The position numbers and the translations under genes were made by a program. A stretch of 64,000 nucleotides of DNA. Source: Clostridia bacterium. GTDB taxonomy: Bacteria; Bacillota; Clostridia; Oscillospirales; Acutalibacteraceae. This document shows positions 39,886 to 45,375 of the stretch, piece after piece. The stretch lies in NCBI GenBank assembly GCA_017435385.1, contig JAFSFB010000012.1:1-64000 (forward strand), in the 5' to 3' direction. Below the pieces are notes generated by a model. That model was given only the letters and a program-made list of their open reading frames with translations. It had not been told where the DNA came from and did not search any database. The stretch's first letter is position 1; the number at the start of each line of letters is the position of its first letter.

Positions 39886-39927
39886 AATGGCATAATATAG
39901 ATATGTGCTATGAAAGGAGAGAGAAAA

Positions 39928-41247
39928 ATGCCCGATATGACCGCTCTTTTCAAGATCGGTTACGGTCTTTATGTTGTTACCTCAAACGACGGCAAAAAGG
40001 ATAACGGCTTCATCTGCAACACCGTTATGCAGCTTACAAGCACTCCCGTAAGAGTTGCTGTCACGGTTAACAAGGCTAACTATTCTCACGATACAATCCT
40101 GAACAGCGGCATTATGAATGTCAACTGTCTGACGGAGGGAACACCCTTTGCAGTATTTCAGAATTACGGCTTCAGAAGCGGCAGGGATACCGACAAGTTT
40201 GAAGGAATCGATGTCAGACGCTCTGCAAACGGTCTGGCCGTTCTCGACGAAAACACAAACGCATATATTTCCCTTAAAGTCGAACAGTATCTTGACCTCG
40301 ACTCCCACGGAATGTTCATCTGCTCCGTTACTGATGCCGAGGTGCTCGGAAACGGTGAGAGCGTGACATATGCCTATTATCACGCAAACATCAAGCCGAA
40401 ACCCGAAAAGCCCAAAAAGAAGGGCTTCGTATGCAAGATATGCGGATATTTCTATGAAGGCGATGAACTTCCCGAGGATTTCATCTGCCCTATCTGCAAG
40501 CACCCCGCCTCAGACTTCGAGCCGGTCGAAGTTGACACAGTACTCGAAAAAAATAATAATATAAATCAGATCATCAAGGAGGAAACAAACATGATAAAGT
40601 ACAAGTGCAAGGTATGCGGTGAAATTTTCGAGGCTCCCAAGGGCTCGGTTGCCATCTGCCCCAAATGCGGCGTAAGCGGCGACAAGCTTGAAATCATCGC
40701 TGAAACAAAGGCTTCAAAGTACGCAGGAACTCAGACAGAAAAGAATCTTGAGGCTGCTTTCGCAGGCGAATCTCAGGCAAGAAACAAATATACCTATTTT
40801 GCTTCAAAGGCAAAGAAGGAAGGCTTCGAGCAGATCGCTGCTCTCTTCCTCAAGACCGCCGATAACGAAAAGGAACACGCAAAAATGTGGTTCAAGGAGC
40901 TCAACGGCATCGGCAACACCGCCGAAAATCTCGTTGAAGCCGCAAACGGCGAAAACTATGAGTGGACAGACATGTATGCCGGCTTTGCCGAAACAGCAGA
41001 CGAAGAAGGCTTCCATGAGCTTGCCGAAAAGTTCCGCATGGTTGCAGCTATCGAAAAGACTCATGAGGAGCGTTACCGTGCTCTGCTTCACAATGTTGAA
41101 ACCGCTCAGGTATTTGAAAAGAGCGAGGTCAAGGTCTGGGAATGCCGCAACTGCGGTCACATCATCGTCGGCACAAAGGCTCCCGAGGTCTGCCCCGTAT
41201 GCGATCATCCCAAGGCATACTTTGAGCTTCATGCAGAAAATTATTAA
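39928..41247 (+). CDS. High-molecular-weight rubredoxin fused in frame to rubrerythrin
   Basis: A 439-residue protein joining two usually separate oxygen-defence proteins. Residues 1-160 are an FMN-binding flavin-reductase domain (start [30 protein letters not shown]). Residues ~170-205 are a rubredoxin (C-K-I-C-G-Y, then C-P-I-C-K-H). This is the layout of Hrb. A linker follows, then at residue 222 the start of a rubrerythrin: a C-K-V-C-G / C-P-K-C-G ribbon, the diiron domain ([17 protein letters not shown]-x-x-H-A motifs) and a C-terminal rubredoxin (C-R-N-C-G-H, C-P-V-C-D-H). AAGGAGG (40576-40582) stands 8 bases before the internal ATG 40591, so a separate 218-residue rubrerythrin is probably also made. 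These proteins reduce O2, NO or peroxide. Confidence 0.9.
40576..40593 (+). promoter_or_regulatory. Internal ribosome binding site and start for rubrerythrin
   Basis: AAGGAGG (40576-40582), 8 bases, ATG 40591, all inside the longer reading frame and in phase with it. It would give a complete, free rubrerythrin ending at the same stop, 41247. Confidence 0.75.
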
Positions 41248-41267: not shown

Positions 41268-41296
41268 TTGCAAAGCGAAAAGCAGTGTGATATAAT
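41268..41296 (+). promoter_or_regulatory. Sigma-A promoter of the glycine riboswitch
   Basis: TTGCAA (41268-41273), 17 bases, TATAAT (41291-41296). Transcription should start near 41303, just before the first aptamer. Confidence 0.82.
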
Positions 41297-41314
41297 AATA
41301 AAAAATGAATAACC

Positions 41315-41478
41315 TAAATGATGCTTGCAGGAAATGCATAACAAGCAACCGAAGGAGTAACGCTCTCAGGTAAACGGGACTGCAAGCTGATAGGACTTTG
41401 GAGAAGCTCATTGAATTGAGTGCCGAAGGTGCAAGCGCAAAAGCGTTAATCTCTCAGGCAAAAGGACAAAGGTTTTAT
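41315..41478 (+). ncRNA. Tandem glycine riboswitch (gcvT element) with no gene behind it
   Basis: Two glycine aptamers lie in tandem. The first has ACCGAAGGAGTAACG and CTCTCAGGTAAACGGGAC; the second has GCCGAAGGTGCAAGCGC and CTCTCAGGCAAAAGGAC, with the outer stem CTTTG/CAAAG. These are the conserved cores of the cooperative gcvT-type riboswitch. In other bacteria it controls glycine cleavage or glycine transport genes. Here a terminator follows, then a repeat element and a gene on the opposite strand; no forward gene follows within 2.9 kb. Confidence 0.9.
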
Positions 41479-41508
41479 CCCCGATTTTCGGGAAGAGGAT
41501 GTTTTTTG

Positions 41509-41548
41509 GCGGATTGCGTTTTTCGGCGCAATCCGCTTTTTGCTGTTT
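41509..41548 (+). terminator. Terminator of the glycine riboswitch
   Basis: GCGGATTGCG and CGCAATCCGC form a 10-bp stem with an 8-base loop and a T-rich tail, ~30 bases after the second aptamer, as expected for the expression platform. Confidence 0.85.
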
Positions 41549-41572
41549 TACAGCATCGGATTATAGAAGGAT

Positions 41573-41610
41573 GAAGCAAAAGCCGCAGGTAAAAACCTGC
41601 GGCTTTTGCT
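41573..41610. terminator. Left terminator-like hairpin of repeat copy A
   Basis: GCCGCAGGT and ACCTGCGGC form a stem between AAAA and TTTT. This 38-base sequence recurs at 41859-41896 with two base differences. Confidence 0.75.
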
Positions 41611-41858
41611 CAGCTTGTCGAAAAACTTGTTTTTCGGCAAGGTGGCGACTGTTGAGAAAGGAAGCTGAATGATGTTTTCTTCGACCGAAGGCGTACAAAG
41701 GTACGTCGATGGGAGAAAAAACATCAAATAAACGAAAAGATATGCGGCGGTATGAGAGCATCCCGCCCTGCTCTTATAACGCTGCTGATACGGGGCGTCG
41801 GGTTGCTGACCCATGCATTTTATTTCGTTTATGTTTCAGCGACTTTATCGACTGTCAA
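41611..41858. repeat. Dispersed ~248-bp element, copy A
   Basis: A 248-base segment closely similar to 45097-45343, with three conserved hairpins in order: CTTGTCGAAAAA/TTTTTCGGCAAG (41614-41641), GATGTTTT paired with AAAACATC (about 41670-41726), and GGCGGTATG/CATCCCGCC (41746-41767). It lies between the riboswitch and GH35 genes, flanked by duplicated terminators. Small reading frames inside it change phase between copies, so I do not call a protein. Function unknown. Confidence 0.85.
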
Positions 41859-41896
41859 GAAGCAAAGGCCGCAGGTGAAAACCTGCGGCTTTTGCT
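41859..41896. terminator. Right terminator-like hairpin of repeat copy A
   Basis: A near-identical copy of 41573-41610 (36 of 38 bases). It lies just past the 3' end of the reverse-strand GH35 gene and may end that transcript. Confidence 0.75.
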
Positions 41897-41902
41897 GTTA
41901 TG

Positions 41903-43651
41903 TTATCCTATATCGGGTTCACTGTCGAGAAGAACAACGGGTGTTTCATAGCCCTCCGTTTCAAAGATAACGATTTCGTTTCTGCCTTTTTTCAGGAACG
42001 GAGCGGGAAGATATGCCGATCTCTGGGGACCGACCTCCCAATGTCTTGAAAGAACTCTTCCGTTGACGATAATGATACCCTTTCTGAATGTCGGGAGCTT
42101 GACAAAAGTATCACAGCATTCGTCGATCTCAAACTCACCTCTGAGAAGAACGGGACTGCCGTCAAAGGCATCAACGCCGTCCCTGAATTCGACCTTTGAT
42201 ATATCGTCAAACGGCAGAGTGTAATTCTGCCAATGATAAACGAAGTTATTGCCGAAACCGATGCCCTCGGTTATGCCTTTGCAATCCCTGAGATGAGCGC
42301 CGTAATTGACTCTGCCCATGTTTTCGACAAGCACCGCAAGCTCCGCACCCTCTTTCGGGATGCTGACTATGTGCAGGGGTTTTGTGTCATTTCTGTACTG
42401 AACGCCGACAAACTTTCCGTCAAGATAGATGTATCCTCTGTCGTGAACCTCCTGAAGCCTTACGGGCTGTTCGTCACGGGGACCTCTGACATGGGTCTTA
42501 TAAAGAACATAGCCGTAGCCCTGACCGAGCTTTTCCATCGTTCCGGGAGTCACGCTTTCAACGGGACTGCTCAGAGAATCAAGAATGTCAAAAAGCTTTG
42601 CGGACTGAGTAAGCTTTACCTCGCCGTATTTCATTCTTCTGACGGGATCAGGAAGCTCAATGTCGGGAACGGGAGCATATTTTGAAATAACCTCACGGAT
42701 CTTAAAATATTTTTCCGTGGGATCGCCGTATTCATTAACGGGTGCATCGTCGTCATAGCTTGAAACCGTCGGCTCGTAGCAGTCATAGCAGTTTGCGCCG
42801 TTCATATAGCCGAAGTTTGTTCCGCCGTGGAACATATATGCGGAAACGCTTCCGCCAAGCCCGAGTATTTCGTCAAGTGCTTTTGCGGCATCCACGGGAT
42901 CACGGCTGTGATGCTCCTCCGTCCAATGGTCGAACCAACCGTTCCAGAATTCGGTACACATGAGCGGTCCGTCAGGCTGATACTCTCTCAGACGGGCAAA
43001 CTGCTCCTTCGCTCTTGAGCCGAAGTTTGCGGTTTTATGTATCTCGGGAACCGTGCCGCCCGTGAGCATCTGATATTCCGCACCGTCAGAGGTGAACAGC
43101 GGAACACTGATGCCTCTGTCTTTAAGTCCTTTTGCAAGATAGCGGATATATTCGCTGTCATCGCCGTAGCTGCCGTATTCATTTTCGACCTGAACGAGAA
43201 TAACGTTGCCGCCCTCAGTTATCTGATGCTTTGCGATTCGGGGAATGAAATCATCGAAGAAACGGTCAACTGCCGCAAGATAATTCTCCTCCATACAGCG
43301 AAGCTGAAGCTCATCATTTTTCAGAAGCCACCACGGCAGACCGCCGAAATCCCACTCCGAGCAGATATACGGTCCCGGTCTGACAATTGCATAGAGCCCG
43401 AGCTCTGCCGCAATTTCAAGAAATTTCTCTATATCGAGCATATCCGAATAATCGAAAACGCCCTCTTTCATTTCATGGAGATTCCATGCAACATAGGTTT
43501 CAACCGTATTGAAGCCGCATGCCTTGAGCTTCAGGAGCCTATCCCTCCAGTATTCCGAAGGAACTCTGAAATAATGTATCGCACCGGCTATAACTCTGAA
43601 GGGTTCACCGTTCAGATAAAAGCCGTCTTTTTCAATGGTAAAGCTTTTCAT
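41903..43651 (-). CDS. GH35 beta-galactosidase
   Basis: A 582-residue enzyme of family GH35. The N-terminal TIM barrel shows FRVIAGAIHYFRVPSEYW, GFNTVETYVAWNLHE, V-R-P-G-P-Y-I-C-S-E-W-D-F-G-G-L-P-W-W, the acid/base in V-Q-V-E-N-E-Y-G-S-Y, and the nucleophile in C-T-E-F-W-N-G-W-F-D-H-W. C-terminal jelly-roll domains follow (G-Y-V-L-Y-K-T, Y-I-Y-L-D-G-K-F-V-G). No signal peptide, so it acts on imported beta-galactosides. It lies 11 bases after the phosphatase-like gene on the same strand. Confidence 0.93.
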   Translation of the reverse strand: MKSFTIEKDGFYLNGEPFRVIAGAIHYFRVPSEYWRDRLLKLKACGFNTVETYVAWNLHEMKEGVFDYSDMLDIEKFLEIAAELGLYAIVRPGPYICSEWDFGGLPWWLLKNDELQLRCMEENYLAAVDRFFDDFIPRIAKHQITEGGNVILVQVENEYGSYGDDSEYIRYLAKGLKDRGISVPLFTSDGAEYQMLTGGTVPEIHKTANFGSRAKEQFARLREYQPDGPLMCTEFWNGWFDHWTEEHHSRDPVDAAKALDEILGLGGSVSAYMFHGGTNFGYMNGANCYDCYEPTVSSYDDDAPVNEYGDPTEKYFKIREVISKYAPVPDIELPDPVRRMKYGEVKLTQSAKLFDILDSLSSPVESVTPGTMEKLGQGYGYVLYKTHVRGPRDEQPVRLQEVHDRGYIYLDGKFVGVQYRNDTKPLHIVSIPKEGAELAVLVENMGRVNYGAHLRDCKGITEGIGFGNNFVYHWQNYTLPFDDISKVEFRDGVDAFDGSPVLLRGEFEIDECCDTFVKLPTFRKGIIIVNGRVLSRHWEVGPQRSAYLPAPFLKKGRNEIVIFETEGYETPVVLLDSEPDIG

Positions 43652-43662
43652 GTCTGCACCTC

Positions 43663-44295
43663 TCAGTCGGGTAATTCTTCTCTTTCATAGGGGAATTCGC
43701 TGAAAACCTCAAATTTCTTTGCTCTCATCCAGAGCGAGGGGTTGACCTTGACGGTAAAGCCGCAGCCGTTGGGAGTCAGCCATTCGTGCATGGGGTATTC
43801 GGGAATTCCGTAAGCGGCAAGAATGGCCATGATAACTCCGCCGTGAGTGACGATGGCGGCAGATGTCGTTCCCGTTTTCATCAGACCCTCCGCAACCTTC
43901 TCAAAGGTTTCGCAGACTCGCTTTCCGAACGCCTCGTTGCTTTCTCCGAAGGGAGGCGCTACCCCCTGCTCGCCTGCAAGCCAACGGGGAAAAACGGGAT
44001 TTTTTTCAAGCTCTTCGGCAGTCTTGTTTTCAAATTCTCCGAAGTTATATTCGATAAAGCCGTCAATAAGGATCGGCTTGTTGTCAGGATAAAGGATTTC
44101 TGCTGTTCTGACACAGCGCTTGAGCGGACTTGTAAAAACAGCATCAACGGGCGGAAAGATCAGCTCTTTTTTCATTTCAACGAGCTGTTCACAGCCCTCT
44201 GCGCTGATTTCGACATCGGTATGACCGATATATCTGCCCTCGAGATTTTCATCAGTAAGAGCATTGCGGATAAAATGGATGGTATATGACTTCAT
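43663..44295 (-). CDS. Histidine-phosphatase-fold protein with the catalytic His replaced
   Basis: A 210-residue protein of the phosphoglycerate-mutase/histidine phosphatase fold. The fold markers F-T-S-P-L-K-R-C-V-R-T-A-E-I-L and VTHGGVIMAILAAYG are intact. The N-terminal motif, normally L-x-R-H-G-x-T with the phospho-accepting His, reads F-I-R-N-A-L-T here: residue 11 is Asn and residue 12 Ala. The codon is AAT, one base from a His codon. It may be inactive as a phosphatase or have a different role. The start at 44295 has GGAGG 5 bases upstream; a longer in-frame start at 44346 has none. It is the first gene of a pair with GH35. Confidence 0.85.
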   Translation of the reverse strand: MKSYTIHFIRNALTDENLEGRYIGHTDVEISAEGCEQLVEMKKELIFPPVDAVFTSPLKRCVRTAEILYPDNKPILIDGFIEYNFGEFENKTAEELEKNPVFPRWLAGEQGVAPPFGESNEAFGKRVCETFEKVAEGLMKTGTTSAAIVTHGGVIMAILAAYGIPEYPMHEWLTPNGCGFTVKVNPSLWMRAKKFEVFSEFPYEREELPD

Positions 44296-44323
44296 TTTTC
44301 CTCCAAAAACCAAAAAGAATTTC

Positions 44324-44387
44324 TGTATAATTTTGACAATATACAAATTGTATAAAAAGATGTATACTGAATATAAGCAAATGTATA
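44324..44387. promoter_or_regulatory. TGTATA repeats between the phosphatase-like and XRE genes
   Basis: TGTATA occurs at 44324, 44349, 44361 and 44382, and ATACAAATTGTAT (44341-44353) is an inverted repeat. The cluster lies in the divergent promoter region next to the XRE regulator gene and could be its operators; this is inferred. Confidence 0.4.
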
Positions 44388-44414
44388 ATCATTAAAGAAC
44401 ACGGGGTGACTGAT

Positions 44415-45062
44415 TTGGAAAGAATCTTTCCGGTTATTCTCAGCGAGCTCAGAAAAGAACGGGGACTCAGCCAGAAGGAGGCAGCCGCAAAGCTCGGAAT
44501 TTCTCAGGCTCTGCTTTCTCATTACGAAAAAGGGATCAGAGAATGCGGTCAGAGCTTTCTCGTAAGAGTTGCTGATTTTTACGGCGTGACCTGCGACTTT
44601 CTTCTCGGCAGAACGACCTCAAGGAATTACAGAGGCGGTCTTGACGACCTCGCAGAAAAAGAGATGAATGACGGGATACCGTCAGTAAGCACCTTCGTCA
44701 AGGCGGGGCTGATGCTCAGCGATTACATGAAGAAGAACAGCTCTCTGGGCGGCATGAAGCTCGACACGGTCATCGGCATTGAGATCTACAAGGTCATTCT
44801 CGCTCAGACTGCGGCAGGTAACCTGCCGAAAAACTGGGCAGGCAGAGCCTATTATGACGGAAGCATCTGCAACACGCCGATTTATATGAGCATCATCGAG
44901 GAGGCGGCAGAAGCTGCACGGGCAGCATCAAAAGCAAAAAATCCGCAGCCCGATGCACCCGTTCCCGAAGCTGTTAAAACGCTTGTCAGCACGGTGGAGG
45001 ATCACATCGTCGACTATTGCACGAGAAACACTCCGCCCATTCCCTCAAAGTTCATGAAATAA
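44415..45062 (+). CDS. XRE family transcriptional regulator
   Basis: A 215-residue protein with an N-terminal XRE helix-turn-helix (about 8-65: L-S-E-L-R-K-E-R-G-L-S-Q-K-E-A-A-A-K-L-G-I-S, then H-Y-E-K-G-I-R-E-C-G) and a helical C-terminal part of unknown role. I place the start at TTG 44415, six bases after GGGGTG; GTG 44406 overlaps that site. Divergent from the phosphatase-GH35 pair, so it may control those genes. It is followed by copy B of the dispersed element. Confidence 0.85.
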   Translation: MERIFPVILSELRKERGLSQKEAAAKLGISQALLSHYEKGIRECGQSFLVRVADFYGVTCDFLLGRTTSRNYRGGLDDLAEKEMNDGIPSVSTFVKAGLMLSDYMKKNSSLGGMKLDTVIGIEIYKVILAQTAAGNLPKNWAGRAYYDGSICNTPIYMSIIEEAAEAARAASKAKNPQPDAPVPEAVKTLVSTVEDHIVDYCTRNTPPIPSKFMK

Positions 45063-45072
45063 AGAAACAGTC

Positions 45073-45096
45073 AAAGCCGTCGGTTTCCCGACGGCT
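45073..45096. terminator. Left terminator-like hairpin of repeat copy B
   Basis: AGCCGTCGG and CCGACGGCT form a 9-bp stem just after the XRE gene. The same 24 bases recur exactly at 45344-45367. No strong T tract follows. Confidence 0.65.
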
Positions 45097-45343
45097 CATC
45101 TTGTCTGAAAACTTGTTTTCCGGCAAGATGGGGGCTGTTGAGGAAGGAAGCTGAATGGCGTTTTCTTCGACCGAAGGCGTACAAGGGTACGTCGACGGGA
45201 GAAAAAACGTCAAATAAACGAAAAGATATGCGGCGGGATGAGGGCATCCCGCCCTACTCTTATAACGCTATTAATCGGATCATCGGGGCACCGACCCCTA
45301 CCTTTTATTTCGTTTATGTTTCAGCGACTTCACCGACAGCCAT
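45097..45343. repeat. Dispersed ~248-bp element, copy B
   Basis: A 247-base segment homologous to 41611-41858. Long stretches are identical (for example around 45161-45180 and 45209-45230), while one stem carries compensating changes: GGCGTTTT/AAAACGTC here for GATGTTTT/AAAACATC in copy A. The region 45265-45300 is the most variable and carries GGGGCACCGACCCCTAC, a palindrome of the CCTAC-tailed family, as does GGCGGGATG/CATCCCGCC at 45233-45253. No gene is called in 45063-45375. Confidence 0.85.
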
Positions 45344-45367
45344 AAAGCCGTCGGTTTCCCGACGGCT
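45344..45367. terminator. Right terminator-like hairpin of repeat copy B
   Basis: An exact 24-base copy of 45073-45096, directly before the 3' end of the reverse-strand glgA gene. Confidence 0.65.
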
Positions 45368-45375
45368 ATAGTTAT

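Follow-up and report, generated by a model that had tools for sequence, protein, structure and literature searches.

Glycine riboswitches of family RF00504 that precede AGCS/SAF symporter genes are the closest described relatives of the element reported here. The S. pyogenes representative is an OFF switch, in which high glycine yields a terminated RNA of about 200 nt (PMC5829553), and among transport riboswitches aptamer 2 is the better conserved of the two aptamers (PMC6944388). Riboswitches are also known to control noncoding RNAs. The B12-sensing Rli55 and AspocR of Listeria determine whether a noncoding RNA is terminated early or extended, and the terminated SAM riboswitch SreA of the same genus acts in trans as a small RNA while keeping its cis operon (PMC8079631). 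In C. difficile, an orphan c-di-GMP-I riboswitch between CD2517 and CD2517.1 is listed with neither a downstream gene nor a known function (PMC11477304).

The riboswitch described here lies in a 64,000-nucleotide stretch of Clostridia DNA, the whole of which is referred to as the window. It has the aptamer family, terminator platform and predicted OFF direction of the symporter riboswitches, and it is directly homologous to symporter leaders of its own genus, with aptamer 2 better kept as in transport riboswitches. Unlike them, it is followed by no symporter or other gene in four species, and so lacks the position before a controlled glycine-related gene that goes with RF00504. Like Rli55 and AspocR, it would select between two noncoding transcripts; however, its aptamers are of the glycine and not the B12 type, neither an ANTAR element nor a known antisense target could be found, and its long form would exceed the short one by only about 70 nt. 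SreA shows that a terminated riboswitch can itself be a small RNA, but here no cis gene is left and the trans action is proposed. The C. difficile orphan likewise stands without a gene, although its ligand is different. The kind is therefore known from Listeria (PMC8079631) and from orphan riboswitches (PMC11477304); this example is set apart by its ligand, glycine, by an ancestry that can be traced clearly and by being conserved in several species. No description of an orphan or trans-acting glycine riboswitch was found in the literature searched, most subscription journals being outside its scope.

Organization of the orphan riboswitch locus

The orphan unit (41268-41541, forward strand) consists of an extended −10 promoter, a tandem glycine riboswitch served by it and an intrinsic terminator, and it is flanked by a rubrerythrin gene on one side and a convergent beta-galactosidase gene on the other. 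It is the only glycine riboswitch that an RF00504 search found in the 2.55-Mb window genome; the named genomes closest to this one are of Clostridia assembled from ruminant-hindgut metagenomes. A sequence scan placed the promoter at 41268-41296 (TGTGATATAAT), with TTGCAA, a 17-nt spacer and TATAAT carrying the extended −10 TG (10 of 12 positions matching). Aptamer 1 matched RF00504 at 41318-41392 (43.4 bits) and aptamer 2 at 41388-41479 (61.1 bits, E 3.3e-10), both above the gathering score of 32 bits. The tandem is joined by the leader/linker helix P0 (41313-41394), which encloses aptamer 1 by pairing 41313-41316 with 41391-41394; P0 is paired in 97% of the alignment cells and shows paired changes at three pairs. 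P1 of aptamer 1 pairs 41323-41330 with 41380-41387, while P1 of aptamer 2 (41396-41471) pairs 41396-41400 with 41467-41471. Paired changes also keep the stems of aptamer-1 P1 and of the aptamer-1 accessory hairpin, and the riboswitch fold is more stable than that of shuffled sequences (z −2.76).

Aptamer 1 is a short, divergent version, and it is so in the gene-linked relatives too. In the whole group, the first joining segment of this aptamer (41323-41387) is unusual. The other species and the symporter-linked copies also have an additional hairpin just ahead of the 3' strand of P1, which the window copy has lost. The tandem also matches RF03166 (glycine-GGAnGA), below threshold (73 versus 110 bits).

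Sharing the 3' core of aptamer 2, a predicted antiterminator (41459-41508) that would compete with the terminator pairs CAAAAGGAC (41459-41467) with GUUUUUUG (41501-41508) around a small platform hairpin. The riboswitch terminator (41508-41541) has a stem of 13 pairs at 41508-41537 followed by a T run. It is succeeded by a conserved tail (41542-41577) made up of a small hairpin and then GGATTATAGAAGGATGAAGC (41558-41577), which is nearly invariant in the four species and occurs nowhere else in their genomes. A second hairpin (41575-41610), whose paired arms are kept in the four species, probably terminates transcription on either strand, and a read-through RNA is predicted to end there.

The original prediction had described a strong promoter, two glycine aptamers and a terminator, all intact, with no forward gene in the next 2.9 kb, and this description agrees with the scan and the RF00504 matches. 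The first real forward gene past the riboswitch encodes an HTH regulator (44406-45062); between the terminator and position 44406 there are only reverse genes (41903-43651 and 43663-44346), the second hairpin and a repeat element. This element (41611-41896, including at 41861-41896 a copy of the second hairpin) had been said to follow directly; it is present, but comes after the second hairpin and not after the riboswitch terminator. On the upstream side, 39910-41247 encodes a 445-aa chain that seems to combine flavin reductase-like, rubredoxin and rubrerythrin parts, and the front and rear parts of this protein match at separate places in many relatives.

The same slot in related genomes and the symporter leaders

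Riboswitches 84-85% identical to that of the window along most of its length were found in three others of the 45 genomes of the genus, G006 (JAGBAK010000122), G051 (JAFXJO010000086) and G049 (JAFVVQ010000057). Along each of these three loci, gdhA or its end is followed by rubrerythrin, the riboswitch and its terminator, the second hairpin and a convergent beta-galactosidase gene. No gene separates the riboswitch from beta-galactosidase, and the repeat element is missing from the riboswitch site. Since the locus is common to four separate genomes, misassembly or chance was rejected. In a fifth close relative, G014 (JAGBUT010000277), rubrerythrin and beta-galactosidase are about 80 bp apart and the slot holds a plain hairpin without a riboswitch. 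Trees of the flanking genes pair G014 with G049 (protein-tree support 1.0; the deeper branching is poorly resolved), and because of this grouping the riboswitch was most simply lost from the locus in G014. The riboswitch that G014 carries elsewhere sits at a contig end, so that any gene after it would be outside the contig.

Elsewhere among the relatives examined, a gene does follow the riboswitch. In most of them it encodes an AGCS Na+/alanine-glycine symporter and begins some 20-300 bases further on; in G039, a more distant relative, it encodes a membrane protein that by eye looks like the TRIC/UPF0126 type. The symporter leaders of G022, G023 and G045 can be aligned with the orphan from the two aptamers through the platform to the 5' arm of the terminator. 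The AGCS type linked to these leaders was not found in the four orphan species, where only other subfamilies occurred among the symporters compared, one AGCS contig-end fragment of G051 being left unplaced and three of the orphan-species genomes being only 74-84% complete (95% for the window genome). Judged by this alignment and by the missing subfamily, the riboswitch is an AGCS symporter leader without its symporter. Loss of the controlled gene, one of the two alternatives in the original prediction, is thus borne out as far as the missing gene is concerned. Deletion of the symporter gene in place and a move of the leader would both fit, as the symporters of the relatives stand among other genes than those of the orphan slot.

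Sequence constraint and competing explanations

Conservation of the unit was compared with the four-fold sites of the two flanking genes, which differ by 0.455 on average between pairs of the four species (360 sites). The corresponding values were 0.032 for aptamer 2, 0.034 for the terminator and 0.147 for aptamer 1. Invariant columns numbered 75 of 79 in the aptamer 2 region (41394-41472), 27 of 30 in the terminator stem-loop and 25 of 32 in the tail (41544-41575). In the promoter, the extended −10 (0.045; 10/11 columns invariant) and the −35 (0.083; 5/6) are kept while the spacer between them has drifted (0.461; 4/17), which argues for independent transcription of the riboswitch. Together with the paired changes, this pattern would not be expected of a leader without function.

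These values bear on the view that the riboswitch is an evolutionary relic, left when the symporter gene was deleted and simply not decayed yet. Its homology to symporter leaders and the missing symporter in the four species would fit such a history, as would the minor losses that the window copy shows in aptamer 1 and in its antiterminator. A relic should, however, diverge about as much as unconstrained sites do, whereas the four species have in common 95% of the aptamer-2 columns, the promoter boxes and the terminator despite a 45% difference at four-fold sites. With aptamer 2 and the terminator differing by about 3%, decay is quite unlikely to be what is seen here. A local role in cis is rather unlikely too, though less so: the riboswitch could lie within the 3' UTR of the rubrerythrin mRNA and set where this ends and how stable it is, or its read-through could be antisense to beta-galactosidase; a riboswitch-controlled antisense RNA is known from Listeria in AspocR (PMC8079631). 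The riboswitch occupies this slot between the two genes in all four species, no other terminator was seen between the rubrerythrin stop (41247) and the riboswitch, and G014 has a plain hairpin in the slot instead. Against this role stand the riboswitch's own promoter, the second hairpin (with the inserted element in the window) that separates it from beta-galactosidase, and the lack of an obvious glycine link in either flanking gene.

A gene hidden past the terminator would have ended the orphan status, and the controlled gene might be one for a small peptide that escaped annotation, located past the terminator or overlapping it. Two starts kept in the four species come into question, an ATG at 41571 directly preceded by the purine-rich AGAAGG and an ATG (or GTG) at 41499 preceded by GAAGAGG. 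Their Shine-Dalgarno to start spacing is zero, however, translation from 41571 would have to pass through the second hairpin, and single-base indels shift the frames, so that neither frame nor length is conserved after either start. A four-species frame comparison found no conserved ORF, and a peptide gene is very improbable.

The locus is best read as coding for a noncoding RNA under riboswitch control, similar to Rli55 of Listeria except that the ligand would be glycine, with its own promoter, riboswitch and terminator and no conserved ORF in the transcript. We give a probability of about 0.6 to the proposal that the former AGCS symporter leader now makes only noncoding RNA, in short and long forms controlled by glycine, one of which acts in trans. 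The narrower proposal, that symporter loss left a stand-alone glycine-sensing trans RNA whose low-glycine read-through form carries an active conserved tail, is more tentative and falls a little short of an even chance. That the switch was kept almost unchanged in at least four species of one genus while the transporter was lost suggests that the small RNA itself now has a job. Its loss from the locus in G014 counts against a noncoding RNA, since it implies that the riboswitch is dispensable in at least one relative. The original prediction had offered gene loss and an RNA acting in trans as alternatives. Both are partly right, in sequence: after the gene had been lost, the RNA persisted. A gene-less RNA is conserved in at least four species, as functional noncoding RNAs are, and it may act in trans.

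Candidate targets were sought on this noncoding-RNA reading. Trans pairing with gdhA, rubrerythrin, beta-galactosidase and the remaining AGCS genes gave nothing consistent across species, the test covering the gdhA start from three species and the AGCS start from two only. Inspection by eye revealed no ANTAR-like pair. A gcv operon elsewhere was rejected as a trans target, as no GCV_T was found in six genomes while control genomes gave matches; SHMT is present in the genomes without GCV_T. Glycine reductase (PF07355) gave no match, but the control was equally silent, which deprives this negative of any weight.

If true, the noncoding-RNA reading would provide a natural case of a cis-acting riboswitch turned independent small RNA gene, found in four species beside relatives of the ancestral type, and hence a comparative system for how riboswitches give rise to small RNAs. 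The riboswitch-controlled noncoding RNAs found described sense B12 or SAM, so that a glycine-sensing one would widen the kind. It would also be a warning against dismissing orphan riboswitches in metagenome assemblies as relics.

Predicted switching and the repeat element

Polymerase would start at the riboswitch's own promoter. With glycine in the aptamers, the 3' core of aptamer 2 (GGCAAAAGGACAAAG) would be held in the aptamer, no antiterminator would form and transcription would stop near 41541, giving an RNA of about 240 nt. At low glycine, the core would pair with the U-rich stretch before the terminator, and read-through to the second hairpin near 41610 would give an RNA of about 310 nt that carries the conserved tail in addition. 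Either the short or, more probably, the long form with its tail would act in trans on an RNA or a protein. In nascent-RNA folds of orphan and linked copies, the partner of the U-rich stretch just before the terminator is GGCAAAAGGAC in the aptamer-2 core; 95% of the antiterminator cells are paired, nearly without covariation, as the pairs barely vary. Because occupied aptamers would block this pairing and let the terminator form, the model predicts that glycine terminates transcription, i.e. an OFF switch. We infer glycine binding, the OFF direction, the two transcript lengths and the trans action, and the predicted direction agrees with the S. pyogenes symporter riboswitch (PMC5829553) and with the better-kept aptamer 2 (PMC6944388). 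The window antiterminator is one U shorter (nascent fold −13.8 kcal/mol, versus −17.7 to −19.5 kcal/mol in the other orphans), and with the aptamer 1 accessory hairpin lost as well, the switch may be weakened in the window species.

The element at 41611-41896 is, by its absence from the three other orphan loci, a later insertion and not part of the riboswitch. The original prediction had taken its insertion as a possible mark of the gene loss; this cause was ruled out by the same element-free orphan loci. Related elements occur at several sites in the window genome, with more copies in G006, and the sequences point to what is probably a small non-autonomous mobile element of about 250 bp. Copies are located at 41575-41896 and 45070-45370 of the window and at G000 C6:90168-90457, C9:86350-86590, C13:240320-240560 and C21:109222-109460. 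Every inspected copy of the window genome lies between two copies of one terminator-like hairpin, which differs from site to site. The element appears to insert at terminators, duplicating the whole hairpin, and here to have landed at the second hairpin. The duplicated hairpins are about 20-36 bp long and match on the two sides of the element.
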